Of a stretch of DNA of 64,000 bases, positions 44,078-60,112 are shown in pieces. This DNA comes from Progne subis subis. Its lineage: Eukaryota > Chordata > Aves > Passeriformes > Hirundinidae. Every line of letters begins with the position of its first letter. Positions within the stretch are counted from its first letter, which is position 1. The DNA is taken from the NCBI GenBank assembly GCA_022316685.1, contig JAKJHU010000046.1, forward strand, positions 5,121,001 to 5,185,000, given 5' to 3'. The notes beneath the pieces are model-generated. The model searched no databases and was not told where the DNA came from. It saw nothing but the letters and a program-made list of their open reading frames with translations. The translations under genes and the position numbers were made by a program.

Positions 44078-44971
44078 CCTCTGCTCGAAGGCAACAAAGG
44101 AGAAACACATTATCATAAGGACATCCACACATACAAAACTCCTCACGAAGACTGTGCCCCCCAAAAAGTAAGCAAACCAATAAGCATGTTTATAAATTCT
44201 TGTTTCAAAACACCTGGTAGACTACTTCACCATCAATCCTCTTGCAGAGGCACCTCCACACAAACTTCCACAATCAAAAGAGTGGCCAAGACCTCTCAGA
44301 GACAACTACGTCTAACCCTCCCGGAAAATGTTGATATGAAGACAAATAAGACAACGTGTAAAAATTACTCTCCTTGCCAGACAGTGAACTCAGTCTTGTG
44401 TGTAAATGGTCATGCTCCAGAAGACTGTGACATAAGAAAAACATATGCAACTTGATATACCCAAACCCCAAAAATACAACTTTTGGAAACAAGTTAAGAC
44501 TTGCCTTTGAAAGCACTAGTGAATGTAGTTGGCCGTAAGCTTTAGTTTGACAATTCAGCTTCAAAGTGGAGCATAAAGCATCTCGGTTCTCAGGAAACGA
44601 ATGCTGGACTGACTTGCAAAGGCAAGCCTCTCCGGAGCTGGTATGTTCACCAGCCTCTCCCAGCACGGCGGCCCATGGATCTCAGTCCCATCTCACGCAT
44701 TTCTCCCACCCGCTCGGAACATGCCTGCACAGGGCTTGGTCCTGCATTCAAGCAACAGGTACCACACCACACCCGGCCCGCCCCTCCAAGGAACCCGGGG
44801 GCCCTCCGCTCCGACCGCACCGAGCGGGGCTCGGGCAGAAGCGGAGCCTCACCCACCTCTGTGTCAGAGCGAGCGCTGGGCTGCTAAGGGGCCGCCGGGC
44901 GAAGGTTGTCCCCACTGCGGCAGGAGGCAAAGCGCGGCTGGGACGGGACACGCGGGGCTCCGGCTCCCACC

Positions 44972-45215
44972 GGGCAGTGCCCGAGCCACGGCCCCGCAGA
45001 GCAGCGGGAGCGGACACCGCCGGGCCGGGCCGCACTGCTGCCACGGGGCAGTGCCCGAGCCACGGCCCCGCAGGGCAGCGGGAGCGACACCGCCAGGCCG
45101 AGCCGGCCCGGGCCGCACTGCTGCCACCGGGCAGTGCCCGAGCCACGGCCCCGCAGAGCAGCGGGATCGACACCGCCGGGCCGGGCCGAGCCGGGCCGGG
45201 CCGCACTGCTGCCAC
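44972..45215. repeat. GC-rich tandem repeat, about three 74-83 bp units
   Basis: Near-identical units begin with GGGCAGTGCCCGAGCCACGG at 44,972, 45,046 and 45,129, so the spacing is 74 then 83 bp. A partial fourth unit begins near 45,207. Units differ by a few substitutions and by extra GGGCC-type blocks at the junctions. The array lies just downstream of the predicted ERCC6 start site, so it is probably in the 5' UTR or exon 1. Confidence 0.85.
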
Positions 45216-45324
45216 CGGCACGGCTCCGGCACTGCGCCTGCGCGGCACGCGCCGCGCCACGCGTCACTTCCGCAGCGGCGGGGCAGCGGGGCGCCTGCGC
45301 GGAGGGCCGGTGCTGTCAGGGCTT

Positions 45325-45465
45325 CCCCGGGGCTCCGCTGGTGACAGGAGCAGGTGTGACATCTTTCCCCGGGGCTCCGCTGGTGACAGGAGCAGGTGTG
45401 ACATCTGTCCCCGGGGCTCCGCTGGTGACAGGAGCAGGTGTGACATCTGTCCCCGGGGTCCTGCC
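45325..45465. repeat. 42-bp minisatellite, three full units plus a partial one
   Basis: Units start with CCCCGGGG at 45,325, 45,367, 45,409 and 45,451, an exact 42-bp period. The first three units are almost identical (one T/G difference near the unit end); the fourth diverges after about 10 bp. Because 42 is a multiple of three, the array keeps reading frames open and accounts for spurious open frames on both strands. Confidence 0.9.
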
Positions 45466-46924
45466 GCTTACTCTGCATGTTTGCCCCATCCTTCTGTCTC
45501 CCGATTTCAGCGTCGTGAAGCTCCCGCATCCAGCTACCTCCTTTGGGCAGCAGAACTGAGTTTACTTGCTGGCAGCCTTGGTCCAGCTGTGAGAGGATAA
45601 ATATACAGCAGAACACATAGATATTAATGAATAATTCCCAAAAGTGTTAATGGCTTTTCCCCCCGGCTTTATTCTGAACTACAATTTCAGGTCCTTGACT
45701 GAAGATGTTCTTTCTTTTCCATTACCTTATTCCTATCTTGTAATGTTTATGAGTCTCAGGGAAACACAGAATGGGTTCTCTAAAAATGGAAAGGTCATCA
45801 AGCAAATAAAGCAGTGCTATGTTGATAAACTCTTGTTTGTTTCCTTTGCTCTGAAAGACATTATTACTGCAAGCACCCTTTAGTGATTACAATGAGGAAG
45901 CTTTTTAAAATTTTTATTGCTGTGTTCTAAGTAGAAGGAATGATGTTTTGTAACTGCTGAAACAATTTAAAATGTGAAGTGCAAAGTCTTACAGGAGACT
46001 GAGAAAAGCAGCCACCAGGGATTTTTAAGGACAGAGCAATGTCAAGCTGCTGTCAAAACTAAACTGTGGCATGGACGGGTAAGCTCAGTTTTCCAGAAAG
46101 TTATTGATGACGGTCAAAAGATAAGTTGTCCTGGAAGCAGAAAAAAGGGCTTTGTATTATTAGCTAGGAGAGAAGTTTTCAAATGACAGGCTGCGTCTTT
46201 CCTAAGCACAGGAGAAGATTGAAGATTTCCCTACATGTTAGCAGACTTCTATGGGTTGAGCGATCACTAATGTCAGAGATGGTCACTACTAAGATCAGAA
46301 GAAGGCCTATAGTCAAACATTAAATATTTTTGTGTCAAAGCAGGTATTTGCAAAACAGGATAAACACATCACAGGGATGCACCCAGAATAACCAGCAACA
46401 ACCTACCAACAACCTGAGTGCTGGTTCTTAGCAGGAGATGATCCTCTCAAGCCCCTTGTGCTTGACAGCCTGGTTGTGCTGTAAAAGGTGTGACCTGCTA
46501 GCAGTTGGCCAAATCTTCATTCTTGCTTTTTAAGCAGGCCTTTCCTCCACAGATTTTAGTATGTGTTTTGCCAAACTGCAGGCTAAGGAAGGACTTTGTA
46601 GCAGAATATATTTATGGATTTTGTTCTGAGGAAATCATGTATGTGGACTATGACTAATGACAATGGAGCAACCACACAGAAAGGCTTGGACTGACTGTCT
46701 AAGAAAAAATGAATCAAAACCTAGTACATTTTCAGAGTTAAGTGACTATGGGTTTTGAGCATCTTCGAGCTCTCATGACACCAGTGTTTACATGACCTGA
46801 GATGGCTGAGCCTCAGGTGTGTGACTCCCACTTTTCTTAGTGGAGCAGTCCCAGTGGATGCAGTGCTTTGCTAAATAATTAAAGATGTTCCTTTGTCCCA
46901 AAGTGCTTAGGTCTAAGAGCTTCA

Positions 46925-53241: not shown

Positions 53242-53246
53242 CTCTG
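53242..53246 (+). repeat. Target-site duplication, left copy (CTCTG)
   Basis: CTCTG immediately before the LTR TGTC end; repeated exactly at 60,108-60,112 immediately after the ACA end. Five bases is the usual duplication length for ERV-L-type integrases. Confidence 0.92.
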
Positions 53247-53908
53247 TGTCTTGGGGTGACTGTGTATCCCCAATCGTCTGTTGGGTGCAGGGGGGAGGGC
53301 AAGCGCGGTTTGTTTTTCCCTAGGAAAACTCTGCTCATCTAAGTGACCTTGAAGCGGGGGAGCTGGAAGTCGGCGAGACTGAAGAAGCTCTGTTGTTTTT
53401 CTCGGGCAGTTAGTTTAGTTTAGTGCTAGCATAGTGTTAGATGCTGTAGAATAGCTGAAGCTTTTTTTGCTTTTTTTTTGCTTTCTTCTTTTTTTTTCCT
53501 TTTTTTCTTTCCTTTTTTCTTTTTTTTTTTTGCCCTCTCCTCGGAACTGTTCCAACCTCTCCAGACTGAGGACCTGAGGAAGCACCGGGGGGCCTCCACA
53601 GGGGACCCACCCCACCGAGACCACCAAGACCAGCCCTGCACATTTTTTTTTTTTTTCAACGTCAGCGGAGAGAGAGTGGTGGAGCACACTGACAATCTTC
53701 AAGAGGAGAGACTTTCTTTAAGTTTGTTATCCCTCCGTAAGCGGCACGAAGCTCTTATCATCGGGTATTGTGCTAGGAGTGCTTTGCCTGTGTAATAAAC
53801 AGGTTTTTTCCACTTCTCTCTGAGGAAGTTTTTCCCGAACCAGTTGGGGGAAGGGAGAGGGGGGCCCCTTGGGAGGATTTCTCCCAAAATCTGCCTGAAA
53901 CCACCACA
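53247..53908 (+). repeat. 5' LTR
   Basis: 662 bp, TGTCTTGG...CCACCACA. It has a long T-rich tract (about 53,461-53,531), a second T run (53,643-53,656) and AATAAA at 53,794-53,799, which places the R/U5 boundary shortly after. It matches the 3' LTR except for T rather than C at 53,251, 53,321 and 53,340, the 11 G/A sites in U5, and two 1-nt T-run differences. Its U5 retains G runs with quadruplex potential (about 53,845-53,876). Confidence 0.97.
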
Positions 53909-53915
53909 AACTTCT

Positions 53916-53941
53916 TGGCGCCCAACGTGGGGCTCGAACCC
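53916..53941 (+). promoter_or_regulatory. Primer-binding site, tRNA-Lys1,2
   Basis: TGGCGCCCAACGTGGGGC is the complement of the 3' end of tRNA-Lys1,2, and the following TCGAACCC extends the match into the T-loop. It starts 7 nt after the LTR. The same primer is used by foamy viruses and several betaretroviruses, while mammalian ERV-L is named after Leu. Confidence 0.93.
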
Positions 53942-53992
53942 ACGAGAGAGTGGAAAAACCCTGAACTGATTAGTATTTAGCAGTCAGTAAAT

Positions 53993-54250
53993 ATGCTGTT
54001 TGAACTCATGTCTCTTAGGGTGGGGGCCTTGATGTGTTTTGGATCCTTAGGCTTCTTTGAGGTCTTAATACCTTTGTGGTCCTTAAGTTTATTTGCATAT
54101 CCAGAGATAGCCCCAATATTATCATTAATACACAGTTTTTACAGTAGAGGGACGCGGATTAGAGTAGCTATTGGCCTTGGCTTAATGATAATAATTTGTA
54201 GGAAGTTTATAAAGGTGCTGAAGTCTGTTCCTTCTATGTATGGGTCATAG
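53993..54250 (+). CDS. Leader ORF, small hydrophobic protein (85 aa), unknown function
   Basis: An ATG-initiated frame starts 52 nt after the primer-binding site and ends at TAG 54,248. It is rich in Leu, Ile, Phe, Val and Met, with one hydrophobic block near residues 10-48 and another near 56-66, so membrane association is plausible. It is in a different frame from gag. Its frame is open again after the TAG up to another TAG at 54,344, so it overlaps the start of the gag frame. It may be a separate leader protein or a displaced gag N-terminus; I do not recognise it. Confidence 0.45.
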   Translation: MLFELMSLRVGALMCFGSLGFFEVLIPLWSLSLFAYPEIAPILSLIHSFYSRGTRIRVAIGLGLMIIICRKFIKVLKSVPSMYGS

Positions 54251-54339
54251 TTATGGTTATTCACCCTGTTTGTGGGAGGAGGAGCAGAGGATGAAGCATT
54301 GCAGTCTTTTGTTTCCTTCTCCTCTAAATCAGTAAATCA

Positions 54340-55689
54340 TTGCTAGAGAATGTTGAGTTTCCCCTGAGTGTTAAAGAGACCATCTTTCTGATATGTCATC
54401 TGGTAAGCCTCCTCTATACAGTCTGCAGCTTCTCTAAAATATGGGCTGAGATTTCTAGAGGGGCTGATGAAACTCCCGACCCAGGCAGAGGAAATCCTGA
54501 GTGGTGTGGAGAATGGGAGAATATGGGCCAACTCCTCAAGGAATTCTCTGACCCTGTAGTCTGGGATTTTCCACGGGAACAAATTCAGAATCCAGTGGAG
54601 CTAGGGAAATACCTGAAAGAGAGGTACCATGATGGCTCTAAGGAGGAGAAGGTCGCTGCAGTAAGCTGGGCCCTGGCATATGCTTATCGCACCTTGCTAA
54701 AGACTGTAGGGCAGCAGACAGAGGCAGAGGGGAAGGGATACAAATCAACAGCTACCCCAGTCACTCAGGCTGCAGCCAACACCCCAGTTATGAATCCAGC
54801 AGCTAAACCAGACAATAAGCCTAAGCCCCTGGCAGTTGCTCCAGCAAAGAAGCACACACATAAAACCGATCGACCAGTGGACGATGATGACGCAAGAGAA
54901 GGACCTTCACCAAAATCAGAAGCCAAATCTTCCAGCACAGGATCAGAAGCCAATATTGACTCCTTTTCCCTGAAGGACCTTCGAAGCCTAAAAAAAGATT
55001 ACCGGCGACAACCTGATGAATCTATAATTAGTTGGTTAGTCCGTCTTTGGGATGCCGCAGGTGAGGCTACAATTCTGGATGGCACTGAAGCGAGGCATCT
55101 GGGATCCCTGTCACATGATCCAGTCATCGACCAGGAGATGATGAGAGAGGCTAGTCCTTGCAGTCTCTGGATACGGGTCCTAAGAAGCGTGGCAGAAAGA
55201 TACCTATGTGCAGATGATCTCTATATGCAGCAAACCCCATGGAAGACCATAGAACAAGGGATTCAACGCTTGAGAGAAATGGCAGTAGCAGAGATGGTTT
55301 TCTCAGATGACATAAACACTAGGAACCCAGACTTAGTATCATGTACATCTGTGATGTGGCGAAAACTTATACGACTCAGGCCATTAGAATACGCTTCTGC
55401 TTTAGCAGTAATGAAGCGGGAGGACATGGAGGAAACTGTGCTTAATATGGCGAAGAAGCTCCGAGCATATGCAGATGCTGTGCATGGCCCAACACACGCC
55501 AGAATCGCAGCTGTGGAAACACGCCTACAGAAACTAGAGGATAAGATAAATAAGAATCATAAGAAACTCAGGGAGGAGATTAGAGAGGACCTTCTCCAAA
55601 TCTCAGCAGTGCAGATCAGAAGTTCTGGTACCCAACGTAGACGCTCCCCGGCTAGAGAGAGAAGGTACACTCCACGCGCTGAGCTGTAG
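54340..55689 (+). CDS. gag: gag-like polyprotein frame (449 codons, open)
   Basis: An open frame without internal stops, in the same frame as the downstream protease and pol. No ATG begins it: the frame opens after TAA at 54,325 and the first in-frame ATG is at 54,523, so the true start is uncertain. Visible parts are a mid-region rich in Pro, Lys and acidic residues (about residues 150-205), a capsid-like helical region with the Arg/Trp-containing segment near 220-245, and a coiled-coil-like Lys/Glu-rich stretch near 395-430. About ten Trp codons are intact here, in contrast to pol. It closes with TAG at 55,687. The frame stays open beyond it, so that stop may be one of the acquired ones. 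Confidence 0.75.
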   Translation: MLENVEFPLSVKETIFLICHLVSLLYTVCSFSKIWAEISRGADETPDPGRGNPEWCGEWENMGQLLKEFSDPVVWDFPREQIQNPVELGKYLKERYHDGSKEEKVAAVSWALAYAYRTLLKTVGQQTEAEGKGYKSTATPVTQAAANTPVMNPAAKPDNKPKPLAVAPAKKHTHKTDRPVDDDDAREGPSPKSEAKSSSTGSEANIDSFSLKDLRSLKKDYRRQPDESIISWLVRLWDAAGEATILDGTEARHLGSLSHDPVIDQEMMREASPCSLWIRVLRSVAERYLCADDLYMQQTPWKTIEQGIQRLREMAVAEMVFSDDINTRNPDLVSCTSVMWRKLIRLRPLEYASALAVMKREDMEETVLNMAKKLRAYADAVHGPTHARIAAVETRLQKLEDKINKNHKKLREEIREDLLQISAVQIRSSGTQRRRSPARERRYTPRAEL

Positions 55690-55980
55690 TTCTTCCTGCG
55701 AGATTGCGGAGAAAATATGAACAGATGGGATGGAAAATCTACAGCTGCCTTGGCACAACGGGTGCGTGAATTGAAGGAAGTCAAGACTCAAAGAAGAAGT
55801 TTCACCAAAAGGGAAGCGGCTCCAGTTGCCCGTAGCCGAACGGCCAAGTATGACGATGATGACATGTCCGACCCCCTTAAAGGAACCTCTAAGGCATATG
55901 CTCAAGCAAAGAAAGATAACCAGGCTTAGAGGGGCCCTGCCTCTAGCCAGGTAGAGGCTAGGGAAAACCGTGTATTTTAG
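55690..55980 (+). pseudogene. gag C-terminal / gag-pro junction, interrupted by TAG
   Basis: Same frame as gag and protease, bounded and interrupted by TAG at 55,687, 55,927 and 55,978. Basic and acidic low-complexity residues (RRRSF..., YDDDDMSDP). No Cys-His zinc knuckle is seen. No frameshift is needed between gag and pro, so in an undamaged element expression would be by readthrough or as one polyprotein; which cannot be told. Confidence 0.6.
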
Positions 55981-56523
55981 ACTGTGTGGATTCGTTGGCC
56001 TGGCACATCAGAACCACAAAGATATGAGGCCTTAGTTGATACTAGTGCGCAGTGCACATTAATGCCATCAAGACAAGTAGGGGCAGAATCTGTCTCTATT
56101 GCTGGCGTGACGGGGGGATCACAGGATTTTACTGTGGTAGAAGCAGATGTGAGCCTAACTGGAAAGGAGTGGGAGAAACACCCTATTGTGACTAGCCCAA
56201 AGGCCCCATGTATTTTGGGCATAGACTTCCTCCGAAGTGAGTATTTCAAAGACCCGAAAGGACTCAGGTGGGCATTCGGGATAGCGGCTGTAGTAACAGA
56301 AGGCATCCGGCAATTGAACACCTTGCCTGGACTGTCCAAGAATCCTTCTGCAGTAGGACTCTTGAAAGTACAAGAACAACAAGTACCAATTGCCACTTCT
56401 ATAGTGCACCGCCGACAGTATAGAACCACTCGAGATGCTGTAATTCCCATTCATAAGATGATTCAAGAGCTGGAGAGCCAAGGGGTGGTTAGTAAAACCC
56501 ACTCACCCTTCAACAGCCCCATT
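55981..56523 (+). pseudogene. pro: Retropepsin-like protease and N-terminal RT segment
   Basis: The aspartic protease active-site region reads LVDTSAQCTLMPS around 56,033-56,071. The usual catalytic triplet is DTG (or DSG); here Gly is replaced by Ser (AGT). A single G-to-A change at a GG pair would explain it, so the enzyme is probably inactive. The flap/C-terminal motif ILGIDFLRSEYF lies near 56,214-56,249. The frame ends with TAG at 56,524. Confidence 0.8.
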
Positions 56524-57396
56524 TAGCCTGTGCGCAAATCTGAAGGAGAATGGAGATTGACTGTGGACTACCGTGCATTGAATGAGGTAACACCACCACT
56601 GAGTGCTGCTGTGCCAGACATGTTGAAGCTCCAGTATAAGCTAGAGTCCAAGGCAGCAAAATAGTATGCCACAGTTGATATTGCCAATGCATTTTTCTCC
56701 ATTCCTTTAGCAGCAGAATGCAGGCCTCAGTTTGCCTTCACATGGAGGAGCGTGCAGTACACCTGGAACCGACTGCCCCAGGGGTGGAAGCACAGTCCTA
56801 CCATCTGCCATAGACTGATCCAAGCTGCACTAGAAAAGGGTGAGGCTCCGGAGCACCTACAGTATATCGATGACATCATTGTGTGGGGGAACACGGCAAT
56901 GGAAGTGTTTGAGAAAGGAGAGAAGATCATCCAAATTCTCCTGAAAGCTAGTTTTGCCATCAAGCAGAGCAAGGTCAAGGGACCTGCCCGAGAGATCCAG
57001 TTCCTGGGAGTAAAGTAGCAAGATAGACGGCGGCAGATTCCTACTGATGTCATCAACAAGATCACAGCAATGTCTCCACCAACCAATAAGAAGGAGACAC
57101 AAGCTTTCCTAAGTGCTATAGGTTTCTGGAAGATGCATATTCCCGAGTATAGTCAAATCGTGAGCCCTCTTTACCTAGTCACCCGAAAAAAGAATAATTT
57201 CCACTGGGGCCCTGAGCAGCAACAAGCCTTTGCCCAGATCAAGCAGGAGATCGCTCATGCAGTGGCCCTTAGCCCAGTAAGGACAGGACCAGAAGTAAAG
57301 AATGTGCTCTACTCAGCAGCCGGGAACAATGGCCTGTCCTGGAGCCTTTAGCAGAAAGTGCCTGGTGAGACTCGAGGCCGACCACTAAGATTTTAG
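56524..57396 (+). pseudogene. pol: Reverse transcriptase domain, stop-interrupted
   Basis: Motifs in order: VDYRALNEVTPPL, the VDIANAFFSIPL block with the catalytic Asp codon at 56,677, LPQG at 56,773-56,784, YIDD at 56,863-56,874, FLGVK just before 57,016, and the connection region with the TGG-rich GFWKM and FHWGP motifs. All are in frame 1 with no indel. TAG codons at 56,524, 56,662, 57,016, 57,349 and 57,394 break it. Confidence 0.92.
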
Positions 57397-58233
57397 AGTC
57401 GAAGCTACAGAAAGTCTGAAGCCAATTACACCCCAACTGAGAAAGAAATCTTAGCTGCCTATAAAGGAGTTCAAGCCGCCTCGGAAGTGATTAGTACAGA
57501 GGCGCAACTCCTCCTAGCACCCCGACTGCCTGTGCTAGGGTAGATGTTCAAAGGGGAGGTCCCCTCCACCCATCATGCCACTGATGCCACATAGAGCAAG
57601 TGGATTGCTCTTATTACGCAGCGCGCCCGTATGGGTAAACTGAATCGCCCTGAGATTTTAGAAATAATTACCAATTAGCCTGAGGGTAAAAATTTTGGCC
57701 TCACAGATGAAGAACAAGAGCAAGTGACACGGGCTGAAGAGGCTCCACCATACAACCAATTGCCAGCAGAAGAAAGGCATTATGCCCTTTTCACTGACGG
57801 TTCCTGTCGTATTGTAGGGATGAACCGGAAGTAGAAAGCAGCCGTGTGGAGTCCCACACGACAAGTTGCTGAGGCCACTGAAGGAGAAGGTAGATCAAGT
57901 CAACTTACAGAACTCAAGGCTGTTCAATTAGCCTTAGATATTGCTGAAAGAGAAAAGTAGCCGAGGCTCTACCTCTATACTGATTCGTGGATAGTAACCA
58001 ATGCTCTGTAGGGATAGCTGAAGAAGTAGAAAAAGGCTAATTGGCAGCGTGGAAGGAAACCAATTTGAGCTGCTGAAGAGTGGAAAGACATTGCTACCAG
58101 GGTAAGGAGACTACCTGTGAAAGTCCGCCACGTAGATGCCCACATCCCCAAGAGTAGAGCTAATAAAGAGCATCGAAACAACGAGCAAGTAGATCGGGCA
58201 GCAAAAATAGAAGTGTCAAAGATAGACTTAGAT
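57397..58233 (+). pseudogene. pol: Connection and RNase H domain, stop-interrupted
   Basis: FTDGS (57,790-57,804), the TELKA motif near 57,907 and YTDSW (57,976-57,990) are the RNase H catalytic motifs in the right order. In-frame stops are TAG at 57,541, 57,592, 57,676, 57,832, 57,958, 58,009, 58,015 and 58,027, and TGA at 58,066. Three TAG codons within 21 nt (58,009-58,029) mark a dense cluster. Confidence 0.9.
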
Positions 58234-59109
58234 TAGGAACACAAAGGAGAGTTGTTCCTAGCTCGATGGGCCCATGATGCCTCAGGTCACCAGGGCAGAA
58301 ATGCCACCTATAAGTGGGCACGAGACCGAAGGGTGGATCTAACCATAGACAGTATTTCTCAAGTTATCCATGACTGTGAGACGTGTGCTGCCATCAAACA
58401 AGCCAAGCGGGTAAAGCCGCTATAGTATGGCAGGCGATAGTCCAAGTATAAGTACGGGGAAGCCTGGCAGATTGACTACATCACCCTTCCCCAAACCCGC
58501 CAAGGCAAGCGCTACGTGCTCACAATGGTGGAAGCCACCACTGGATAGTTAGAGACCTACCCTGTGCCTCACGCTACTGCCCGGAACACCATCCTGAGCC
58601 TAAAAAAGCAAGTCCTGTAGAGACATAGTACCCCTGAGAAGATTGAGTCAGACAACGGGACTCATTTCAAGAACAGCCTTATTAACACCTGAGCTAGGGA
58701 ACATGGCATTGAGTGAGTGTACCATATTCCCTACCATGCACCTGCTGCAAGCAAAGTGGAGAGGCACAATGCATTGTTAAAAACCCAATTGAAAGCATTG
58801 AAGGGGGGATCGTTCAAGAATTGAGAGCAGCACTTAGCAAAGGCCACCTAGTTAGTCAACACCCGAGGCTCCACCAGCCGAGCAAGACCCGCCCAAGCTG
58901 AGCCTCTGCATACAACAGATAGAGATAAAGTCCCAGTAGTGCATGTCAGAAGTCTGTTAGGGAAGACAGTGTAGATCAGGTCTGCCTCAAGTACAGACAA
59001 ACCCATTCGTGGGGTTGTCTTTGCTCAGGGACCAGGTTGCACATGGTAGATAATGCAAAAAGATGGAACAACTCGATGTGTACCTCAAGGAGATCTGATT
59101 GTTAGATAA
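58234..59109 (+). pseudogene. pol: Integrase domain, stop-interrupted
   Basis: The HHCC zinc-binding region is visible (HDASGH near 58,270-58,287; CETC at 58,375-58,386). The DDE catalytic residues lie at IDY (58,471), SDNG (58,648) and VER (58,756). Stops: TAG 58,234, 58,423, 58,438, 58,546, 58,618, 58,849, 58,972 and 59,047; TGA 58,690, 58,714 and 58,822, each followed by G. TAA at 59,107 is the only TAA and the likely original end. Confidence 0.92.
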
Positions 59110-59424
59110 GAATAATTTGTAAACATCACTGTTTGCTGAATGCTATTGCCATTGTCTGTACATTAAACCATGCAAAATGAAATAGAAGGAAATGTGTAAG
59201 TGAGAGGGTATGTGTTAAGTGTTGAAGGTATGAGCAAGTGTTGAAAGTATGAGTAAGTGAGAGAGGAATCCTGCTGCCCTGCAGCCTAGGGCCTGGATTC
59301 AGTGCCTCAGTGTGGAACATAACAGGAGCATGACAGGTATTGCTTGTATTGTTTTTTTTATGGGGAGAATAGATGGAAGTTTTATGTAGAATATACATTA
59401 GTTCTGTCTGTAAGTCAACGATAT
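59110..59424 (+). other. Proviral 3' non-coding segment, no env
   Basis: About 315 bp between integrase and the polypurine tract. It has loosely repeated GTAAGTG/GTATGAG elements near 59,194-59,262. There is no open frame long enough for an envelope, as expected for the ERV-L group. Confidence 0.8.
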
Positions 59425-59443
59425 GGGGATAAGGGGTAGAAGA
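59425..59443 (+). promoter_or_regulatory. Polypurine tract (plus-strand primer)
   Basis: GGGGATAAGGGGTAGAAGA directly before the 3' LTR is purine-rich with only two T interruptions. It still contains two intact GGGG runs although flanking pol is heavily GG-to-AG changed, as would fit protection in an RNA:DNA hybrid. Confidence 0.7.
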
Positions 59444-60107
59444 TGTCCTGGGGTGACTGTGTATCCCCAATCGTCTGTTGGGTGCAGGGGGGAGGGCAAG
59501 CGCGGTTTGTTTTTCCCCAGGAAAACTCTGCTCATCCAAGTGACCTTGAAGCGGGGGAGCTGGAAGTCGGCGAGACTGAAGAAGCTCTGTTGTTTTTCTC
59601 GGGCAGTTAGTTTAGTTTAGTGCTAGCATAGTGTTAGATGCTGTAGAATAGCTGAAGCTTTTTTTGCTTTTTTTTTTGCTTTCTTCTTTTTTTTTCCTTT
59701 TTTTCTTTCCTTTTTTCTTTTTTTTTTTTTGCCCTCTCCTCGGAACTGTTCCAACCTCTCCAGACTGAGGACCTGAGGAAGCACCGGGGGGCCTCCACAG
59801 GGGACCCACCCCACCGAGACCACCAAGACCAGCCCTGCACATTTTTTTTTTTTTTCAACGTCAGCGGAGAGAGAGTGGTGGAGCACACTGACAATCTTCA
59901 AGAGGAGAGACTTTCTTTAAGTTTGTTATCCCTCCGTAAGCGGCACGAAGCTCTTATCATCGGGTATTGTGCTAAGAGTGCTTTGCCTGTGTAATAAACA
60001 AGTTTTTTCCACTTCTCTCTGAAGAAGTTTTTCCCGAACCAGTTGAAAGAAGAGAGAGGAGGGCCCCTTAAGAAGATTTCTCCCAAAATCTGCCTGAAAC
60101 CACCACA
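59444..60107 (+). repeat. 3' LTR
   Basis: 664 bp, TGTCCTGG...CCACCACA, AATAAA at 59,993-59,998. Relative to the 5' LTR it has A for G at 59,975, 60,001, 60,023, 60,046-60,048, 60,053, 60,060, 60,070, 60,071 and 60,074. Each changed base was followed by G in the 5' LTR. The first 530 bp show no G/A difference. Confidence 0.97.
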
Positions 60108-60112
60108 CTCTG
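60108..60112 (+). repeat. Target-site duplication, right copy (CTCTG)
   Basis: Exact copy of the left duplication at 53,242-53,246. Together they define the insertion ends. Confidence 0.92.

Follow-up and report, generated by a model that had tools for sequence, protein, structure and literature searches.

A probable case of cytidine deaminase editing during reverse transcription in an ERVL-like provirus of Progne subis subis

How can a provirus acquire 28 premature stop codons while its gag-pro-pol region remains in a single frame? The question is raised by a full-length provirus of 6.86 kb (53247-60107) on contig JAKJHU010000046.1 of Progne subis subis. Positions refer to the window, i.e., the whole stretch of 64,000 nt that was analyzed. 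A first-pass annotation, made from the letters alone, had read the stops as the signature of a cytidine deaminase acting at CC on minus-strand cDNA and had placed the editing at 55687..59049. From comparisons with relatives, and of the two long terminal repeats (LTRs) with each other, we find it very likely that this is a young full-length provirus and that a cytidine deaminase preferring CC on single-stranded DNA inactivated it in the course of reverse transcription.

Premature stop codons and substitution spectrum

The pro-pol frame (55687..59109, plus strand), delimited from the frame itself, Pfam matches of its pieces and relatives, consists of 1,141 codons. It contains 24 TAG and 4 TGA codons, while the sole TAA is the terminal one at 59107 and 22 TGG codons remain; all four TGA codons precede a G. 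These counts agree with the first-pass annotation. In each of the two remaining forward frames there are 18 TAA codons, and the absence of TAA is therefore particular to the pro-pol frame. Codons without a following G were found to be TAG, TGA, and TGG in 22, 0, and 15 cases, respectively, and codons with a following G in 2, 4, and 7 cases. Most relatives have Trp at 27 of the 28 stop positions, in support of the proposal that the stops derive from TGG; the remaining position is covered by two sequences only, neither with Trp. The stop at 55687, which had been read as the gag terminus, is not the natural one: this position is Trp in all 42 relatives covering it, and gag and pro-pol are thus continuous in the relatives. 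For each of eight pieces, the alignment with the nearest relative (175-204 columns) stays in this one frame and covers almost the entire piece, in support of a frame without frameshifts.

The gag gene (54523..55686, plus strand), recognized as an open reading frame (ORF) and by comparison with relatives, encodes 388 amino acids from the first in-frame ATG and has no internal stops. The proportion of stops among stops plus TGG was 0/10 in gag and 5/14, 8/14, and 15/22 in the successive thirds of pol. A one-sided test of stop versus TGG position gave p 1.7e-4 with gag included and p 0.024 in pol alone.

A Hypermut-style test had been proposed, and we carried it out pairwise, without a consensus, taking as partners the internal flanks of LTR copies found in this genome; alignments shorter than 250 nt were left out (for leader/gag two copies out of 15, for pol two out of nine). 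For the 1.5 kb that comprise 3' pol and the noncoding sequence behind it (57944..59443, plus strand), five close full-length copies were compared. GG had changed to AG at 50-52 of 140-146 sites and other G to A at 12-14 of 283-306, with 0-3 reverse changes from AG to GG (odds ratios 11-14; p 1.5e-18 to 9.0e-17). In total, each copy gave 62-65 G-to-A changes against 2-5 A-to-G and 0-2 C-to-T. The five flanks compared among themselves had a mean of 0.5-5.8 GG-to-AG changes, the highest value belonging to L016. Two copies outside the five-copy range agree: L010, with partial pol, gave 22/55 GG and 6/114 other G, and L038, with 74% identity and many other differences, gave 41/99 and 28/197. Most relatives lack the stops, the GG-to-AG excess is present, and the pairwise spectrum supports the deaminase interpretation. 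Ordinary neutral decay after insertion, by CpG deamination and random mutation, would leave a symmetric and context-free spectrum, and the one found in 3' pol is the opposite.

In the leader and gag the same excess was found at a lower level. Against 12 copies, 11-16 of 99-119 GG sites had changed compared to 6-9 of 240-278 other G, and one shorter copy gave 6/38 and 2/93; the reverse change from AG to GG numbered 0-2 for every copy except L020. The proportion of edited GG sites thereby rises from about 12% in leader and gag to about 35% in 3' pol, i.e., the load climbs towards the polypurine tract. The editing range first given therefore holds for pro-pol and was too narrow in extent, since gag carries GG-to-AG changes although it is free of stops, and both LTRs are edited as described below.

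Comparison at the protein level gave the same picture. With the nearest relative for each of the eight pieces, 48/162 GG had changed compared to 22/424 other G (GA, GT, and GC; p 2.2e-14), and the controls were 0/184 for AG-to-GG, 1/116 for CA-to-TA, and 0/97 for CG-to-TG. The second-ranked relative gave 46/161 GG, 19/421 other G, and 2/186 reverse changes, and the third-ranked 47/163, 23/413, and 0/189. Relatives with at least 20 GG targets numbered 170 of 231, the 61 below 20 being left out; GG ranked first among the contexts in rate of change in 169 of the 170, and forward changes exceeded reverse ones in 167.

The context also bears on the identity of the editor. AID prefers WRC, which on the plus strand corresponds to a G followed by C or T. 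Such sites had changed in only 6 of 240 cases (GT 2/96, GC 4/144), against 48 of 162 for GG. A gene that we take to be AID is present in the genome, yet on these rates AID is unlikely to have been the editor instead of an APOBEC1-like enzyme.

The two LTRs and the strands edited

The 5' LTR (53247..53908, plus strand; 662 nt, TG...CA) and the 3' LTR (59444..60107, plus strand; 664 nt, delimited by LTR alignment) are 97.6% identical. Between them are 14 substitutions and two poly-T indels, and the substitutions are exclusively of two kinds: 11 sites with G in the 5' and A in the 3' LTR, and three with T in the 5' and C in the 3' LTR. All of the former are confined to the terminal 133 nt of the 3' LTR (59975..60107, plus strand), which include AATAAA and U5. 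Here, 11 of 17 GG sites are changed compared to none of 40 in the first 529 nt. The latter are all found within the initial 95 nt of the 5' LTR (53247..53341, plus strand) in U3, at three of eight CC sites, each preceded by C, while none of the 40 CC sites further on is changed. The probability by chance is about 0.03 that the three would all be at CC and about 0.003 that they would all be in the first 95 nt.

The direction of change was deduced from further LTR copies, 30 in number and located at 28 loci. Of 1,707 LTR candidates, 40 were scored and 30 loci were retrieved, two of which belong to the provirus itself; copies closest to its own LTR are over-represented in the sample. At the 11 G sites the other copies have G in 30/30 (10 sites) or 29/30 (one site), and at the three C sites they have C in 30, 30, and 28; the edited base was found as single cases at 2 of the 14 sites. 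Because the other copies carry G and C, the changes were G-to-A, private to the 3' LTR, and C-to-T, private to the 5' LTR. Five further G-to-A changes, four of them at GG, are common to both LTRs.

That all 14 substitutions are transitions would be favored by neutral decay. However, none of them is at a CpG and every one is at GG or CC, and two other proviruses of the family have no LTR substitutions at all. Together with the 3' pol spectrum, this makes decay after insertion exceedingly improbable as the source of the changes.

A different reading is that the editing was inherited, i.e., that an edited master copy was mobilized in trans and that this provirus is its daughter. The five changes common to both LTRs would fit, and the edits in pol cannot be dated by the LTRs. 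Moreover, such a daughter, Mtv23, is described for mice in a passage of PMC12548423. With 40 of the 1,707 LTR candidates scored, an unsampled edited parent might account for part of the edits in pol. On the other hand, none of the 30 other LTR copies has any of the five shared changes, and the 14 LTR-private changes could not have been inherited. We consider inherited editing improbable. Since LTR-private sets cannot be inherited, the editing that they record belongs to the cycle that created this insertion.

Editing during reverse transcription could have proceeded as follows. The minus-strand cDNA would have been edited while single-stranded. The changes common to both LTRs would have arisen in minus-strand DNA before plus-strand strong-stop DNA copied the LTR, if they did not come from an unsampled parent. 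The set private to the 3' LTR lies where the minus strand has its 5' end, a part that would be displaced when the 3' end of that strand copies the plus-strand strong-stop DNA. The C-to-T set private to the 5' LTR would represent plus-strand editing at the 5' end of that strand. Both edited LTR stretches are at the 5' terminus of a DNA strand, as would suit flaps that become displaced towards the end of reverse transcription, and the unedited middle of the LTR may be the meeting point of the two syntheses.

Since all 14 LTR substitutions are edits, dating by LTR divergence is misled. A naive estimate gives an age of about 3-7 My (assumed rates 3.5e-9 to 1.5e-9), whereas the absence of other substitutions limits the age to about 0.7-1.6 My at most (95% upper bound).

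Two further observations concern the LTRs. Each contains a long T-rich tract (53461-53533 and 59658-59730), and both indels between the LTRs are located there. A hairpin at the end of the 5' LTR, which is broken in the 3' LTR, was tried as evidence of polarity and dropped, as 175 of 200 shuffled sequences fold as well.

The family and structure of the provirus

Ten further 5' LTRs were inspected; nine have a partner LTR, and six of these pairs share a 5-bp duplication. The 5' and 3' states of these pairs are given as found, without a polarity tally from further copies. In L018/L051 (C2439), 20 of 21 LTR substitutions have G in the 5' and A in the 3' LTR, the remaining one being the reverse; 17 of the 20 are at GG and 11 in the last 133 nt. 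L026/L055 (L026 on C2551) has six of eight of this kind, five at GG and two in the last 133 nt, and L020/L050 (L020 on C2150) two of two. L023/L054 and L030/L056 have seven and two substitutions of other kinds; in the T-rich tract of L023/L054, three sites with T in the 5' and C in the 3' LTR are among six mixed C/T differences. No LTR substitutions were found in L011/L052, the last of the six, nor in two pairs compared separately, L017/L016 and L024/L022. L034 has a single one (G/A) and shares four of the five duplication bases, whereas the pairs of L021 (three substitutions) and L010 (18 of various kinds), in which no duplication is shared, probably do not represent single proviruses. In leader and gag, GG-to-AG changes were raised in L020 (10.5 per comparison) and L018 (5.8) relative to the other ten copies (0.1-2.9). 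L020 and L026 are probably lightly edited copies.

The 3'-LTR bias is thus repeated in a second provirus, which speaks against clustered deamination of chromosomal DNA at the transcribed provirus ends after integration. Strand-coordinated clusters are familiar from APOBEC mutagenesis and would suit such an event. However, the edits span leader, gag, and pol and are heavier in 3' pol, and the ends of the provirus were hit on opposite strands, each at the 5' terminus of the strand. Post-integration deamination is accordingly a very improbable source.

Several observations weigh against editing during reverse transcription as outlined above. The plus-strand part is the weakest, with three sites in one provirus. 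Outside the T-rich tract, CC sites with T in the 5' and C in the 3' LTR are absent from all six other duplication-matched pairs; L030/L056 has two differences of this T/C kind, neither of them at CC. The G-to-A changes of the 3' LTR also fall outside the last 133 nt in L018/L051 (9/20) and L026/L055 (4/6), and the two changes in L020/L050 are not at GG. The gradient of stops is modest inside pol alone. In leader and gag, AG-to-GG reaches 7 against L020, but L020 looks edited itself. At the protein level an excess at GA is left over (16/184 compared to 4/140 for the reverse), and some of the changes counted at other G in the DNA comparison may be GG sites whose second G had itself been edited in the partner copy.

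The provirus is flanked by a 5-bp target-site duplication, the left copy at 53242..53246 and the matching right copy at 60108..60112. An AATAAA polyadenylation signal is located in the 5' LTR (53794..53799, plus strand), followed by a primer binding site (53916..53933, plus strand) that is presumably of the tRNA-Lys type. A purine-rich tract with GGGG runs, the probable polypurine tract, adjoins the 3' LTR (59420..59443, plus strand). Nine of the 17 pro-pol pieces of at least 20 amino acids were scanned against Pfam; one matched RVT_1 above the cut-off, while RVP, RT_RNaseH_2, and Integrase_H2C2 were found below it. The best match of the reverse transcriptase (RT) piece among solved structures is 7kse (E 1.4e-15; Peptidase A9/RT/RNase H), which we take to be of the spuma type, followed by RT of MMLV, 1mml (E 2.4e-11); these are structure matches and not a tree. 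In this copy 334 nt separate the stop of pol from the 3' LTR; they contain no plus-strand ORF of 100 amino acids, and no env was seen. A 5-bp duplication, as in ERVL (class III), is found here and in six of the nine partner-LTR pairs, and the sequence features altogether fit an ERVL-like provirus.

Searches with gag found 177 relatives, and among the best 120, which were listed, the top one belongs to Hirundo rustica rustica (83% across 99% of the query), with other passerines next. The C-terminal part of gag (54520-55686) matches DUF7553 weakly (E 1e-4, short of the cut-off), a domain listed also for several bird relatives. A 19-bp short tandem repeat is present in the noncoding sequence between pol and the 3' LTR (59217-59259). 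No second copy of the element was found within the window, and no relatives were found in the viral-contig and genome-contig collections. Elsewhere in the window, 10 of 36 mechanical ORFs had no Pfam match at E 0.01 except a weak TFIIF_beta match below the cut-off, and the Rfam scan gave none at gathering scores. The region 44500-45500 has a GC content of 63-75% and minisatellites of 83 and 42 bp, the window otherwise being 39% GC.

Host deaminases and known systems

A PF08210 profile search of the 1.17-Gb genome gave seven matches at four loci, which we read as APOBEC2, AID, and two APOBEC1-like genes; 11 candidates were scored from an assembly that may be incomplete, and four is a lower bound. 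The exons on C2491 are presumably APOBEC2, and a four-piece minus-strand gene on C1112 is taken to be AID. The two APOBEC1-like loci (C1112, 7,712,976 and 7,724,526, plus strand) are at most about 23 kb from the latter (region 7,712,976-7,735,976, with L047:4425-4883 (+) and L048). Among the PF08210 matches of the 11 scored candidates, a lower bound on the loci, no APOBEC3 locus and hence no host APOBEC3G was recognized. The first-pass annotation had held that birds lack APOBEC3, in agreement with these loci and with published abstracts, according to which APOBEC3 is confined to placental mammals.

Both APOBEC1-like loci have solved APOBEC-1 as their best structure match (E 8e-18 and 9e-34), keep H[AV]E and PCxxC, and are 36% identical to each other over 146 amino acids. 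The named relatives of the locus near 7,712,976 are mostly ABEC1 or APOBEC-1 of birds. In the exon at this locus (L046:4875-5360 (+)), IYPD aligns with the IYDD loop of APOBEC3G, a loop that in APOBEC3G takes part in the choice of context. Among 121 eight-column windows in an alignment of 66 sequences (64 public and the two described here), those over IYPD vary the most; the set may mix orthologs and paralogs, and the named sequences in it are from birds. The IYPD loop is a possible arms-race site.

On this basis the editor was probably one of the two APOBEC1-like enzymes beside AID, and the variable loop of bird APOBEC1 provides a lead on the enzyme responsible. More tentatively, and with somewhat less than even confidence, we suggest a songbird counterpart of APOBEC3G: an APOBEC1 paralog adjacent to AID, variable in its presumed recognition loop, could have gained a preference for CC and may edit germline retroviral cDNA including both displaced 5' flaps. 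If this is true, young proviruses record which strand lay bare at each step. The single insertion described here gives direct evidence that CC-type editing accompanied reverse transcription in an animal whose genome yielded no APOBEC3. Should the opposite-strand marks recur in other proviruses, both displaced 5' termini would have been exposed to the enzyme, and fossil proviruses could be used to map single-stranded intermediates.

APOBEC3G is reported, in work by Yu et al. in 2004, to edit the plus strand in the 5' U3 of HIV. For endogenous proviruses, a literature search covering titles, abstract openings and passages gave no report of C-to-T changes restricted to the 5' LTR. Edited avian LTR elements, which the first-pass annotation had mentioned, are in print (PMC6523648; PMC12548423). 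Passages of these sources name the zebra finch as especially edited among 111 vertebrates (Knisbacher and Levanon, 2016, via PMC6523648) and give 392 G-to-A changes for TguERVl1_I-int (PMC12548423, Table 3). As in the present provirus, the zebra finch elements TguERVl1_I-int and TguLTRK1_1 are described with heavy G-to-A editing, including an ERVL family (PMC6523648; PMC12548423). Beyond what the passages on edited bird elements contain, the present analysis compares the strands of an LTR pair, has a terminal segment that can be read for each strand, and includes a search for host deaminase loci.

Outside mammals, G-to-A editing is also described for LINE-1 of a lizard and linked there to an APOBEC1, but it concerns LINE elements and is without an LTR readout (PMC3880073). 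APOBEC3G acting on HIV-1 and primate endogenous retroviruses is described, as seen here, with GG-to-AG changes and a load climbing towards the polypurine tract (PMC4488724; PMC2564838). Unlike in those systems, no APOBEC3 locus was recognized in this genome, within the lower bound given above.

A further parallel is that of the mouse Mtv proviruses, for which G-to-A changes restricted to the 3' LTR were reported as new and explained by minus-strand displacement late in reverse transcription (Shaffer et al., 2025; PMC12548423). Endogenous mouse mammary tumor virus (MMTV) resembles our provirus in having G-to-A changes private to the 3' LTR. According to the same source, however, the MMTV changes in the 3' LTR are in U3 except for two, and XTC or T(T/C)C is the context preferred by mouse A3; in the present bird provirus, the changes private to the 3' LTR occupy the final 133 nt and the context is CC. 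Likewise, the LTR mismatches of MMTV are G-to-A in the 3' LTR except for one, while here a mirror C-to-T set is present in the 5' LTR. Edited bird endogenous retroviruses and editing restricted to the 3' LTR in mice being already known, the new element is the mirror set of plus-strand marks, at three sites in one provirus.

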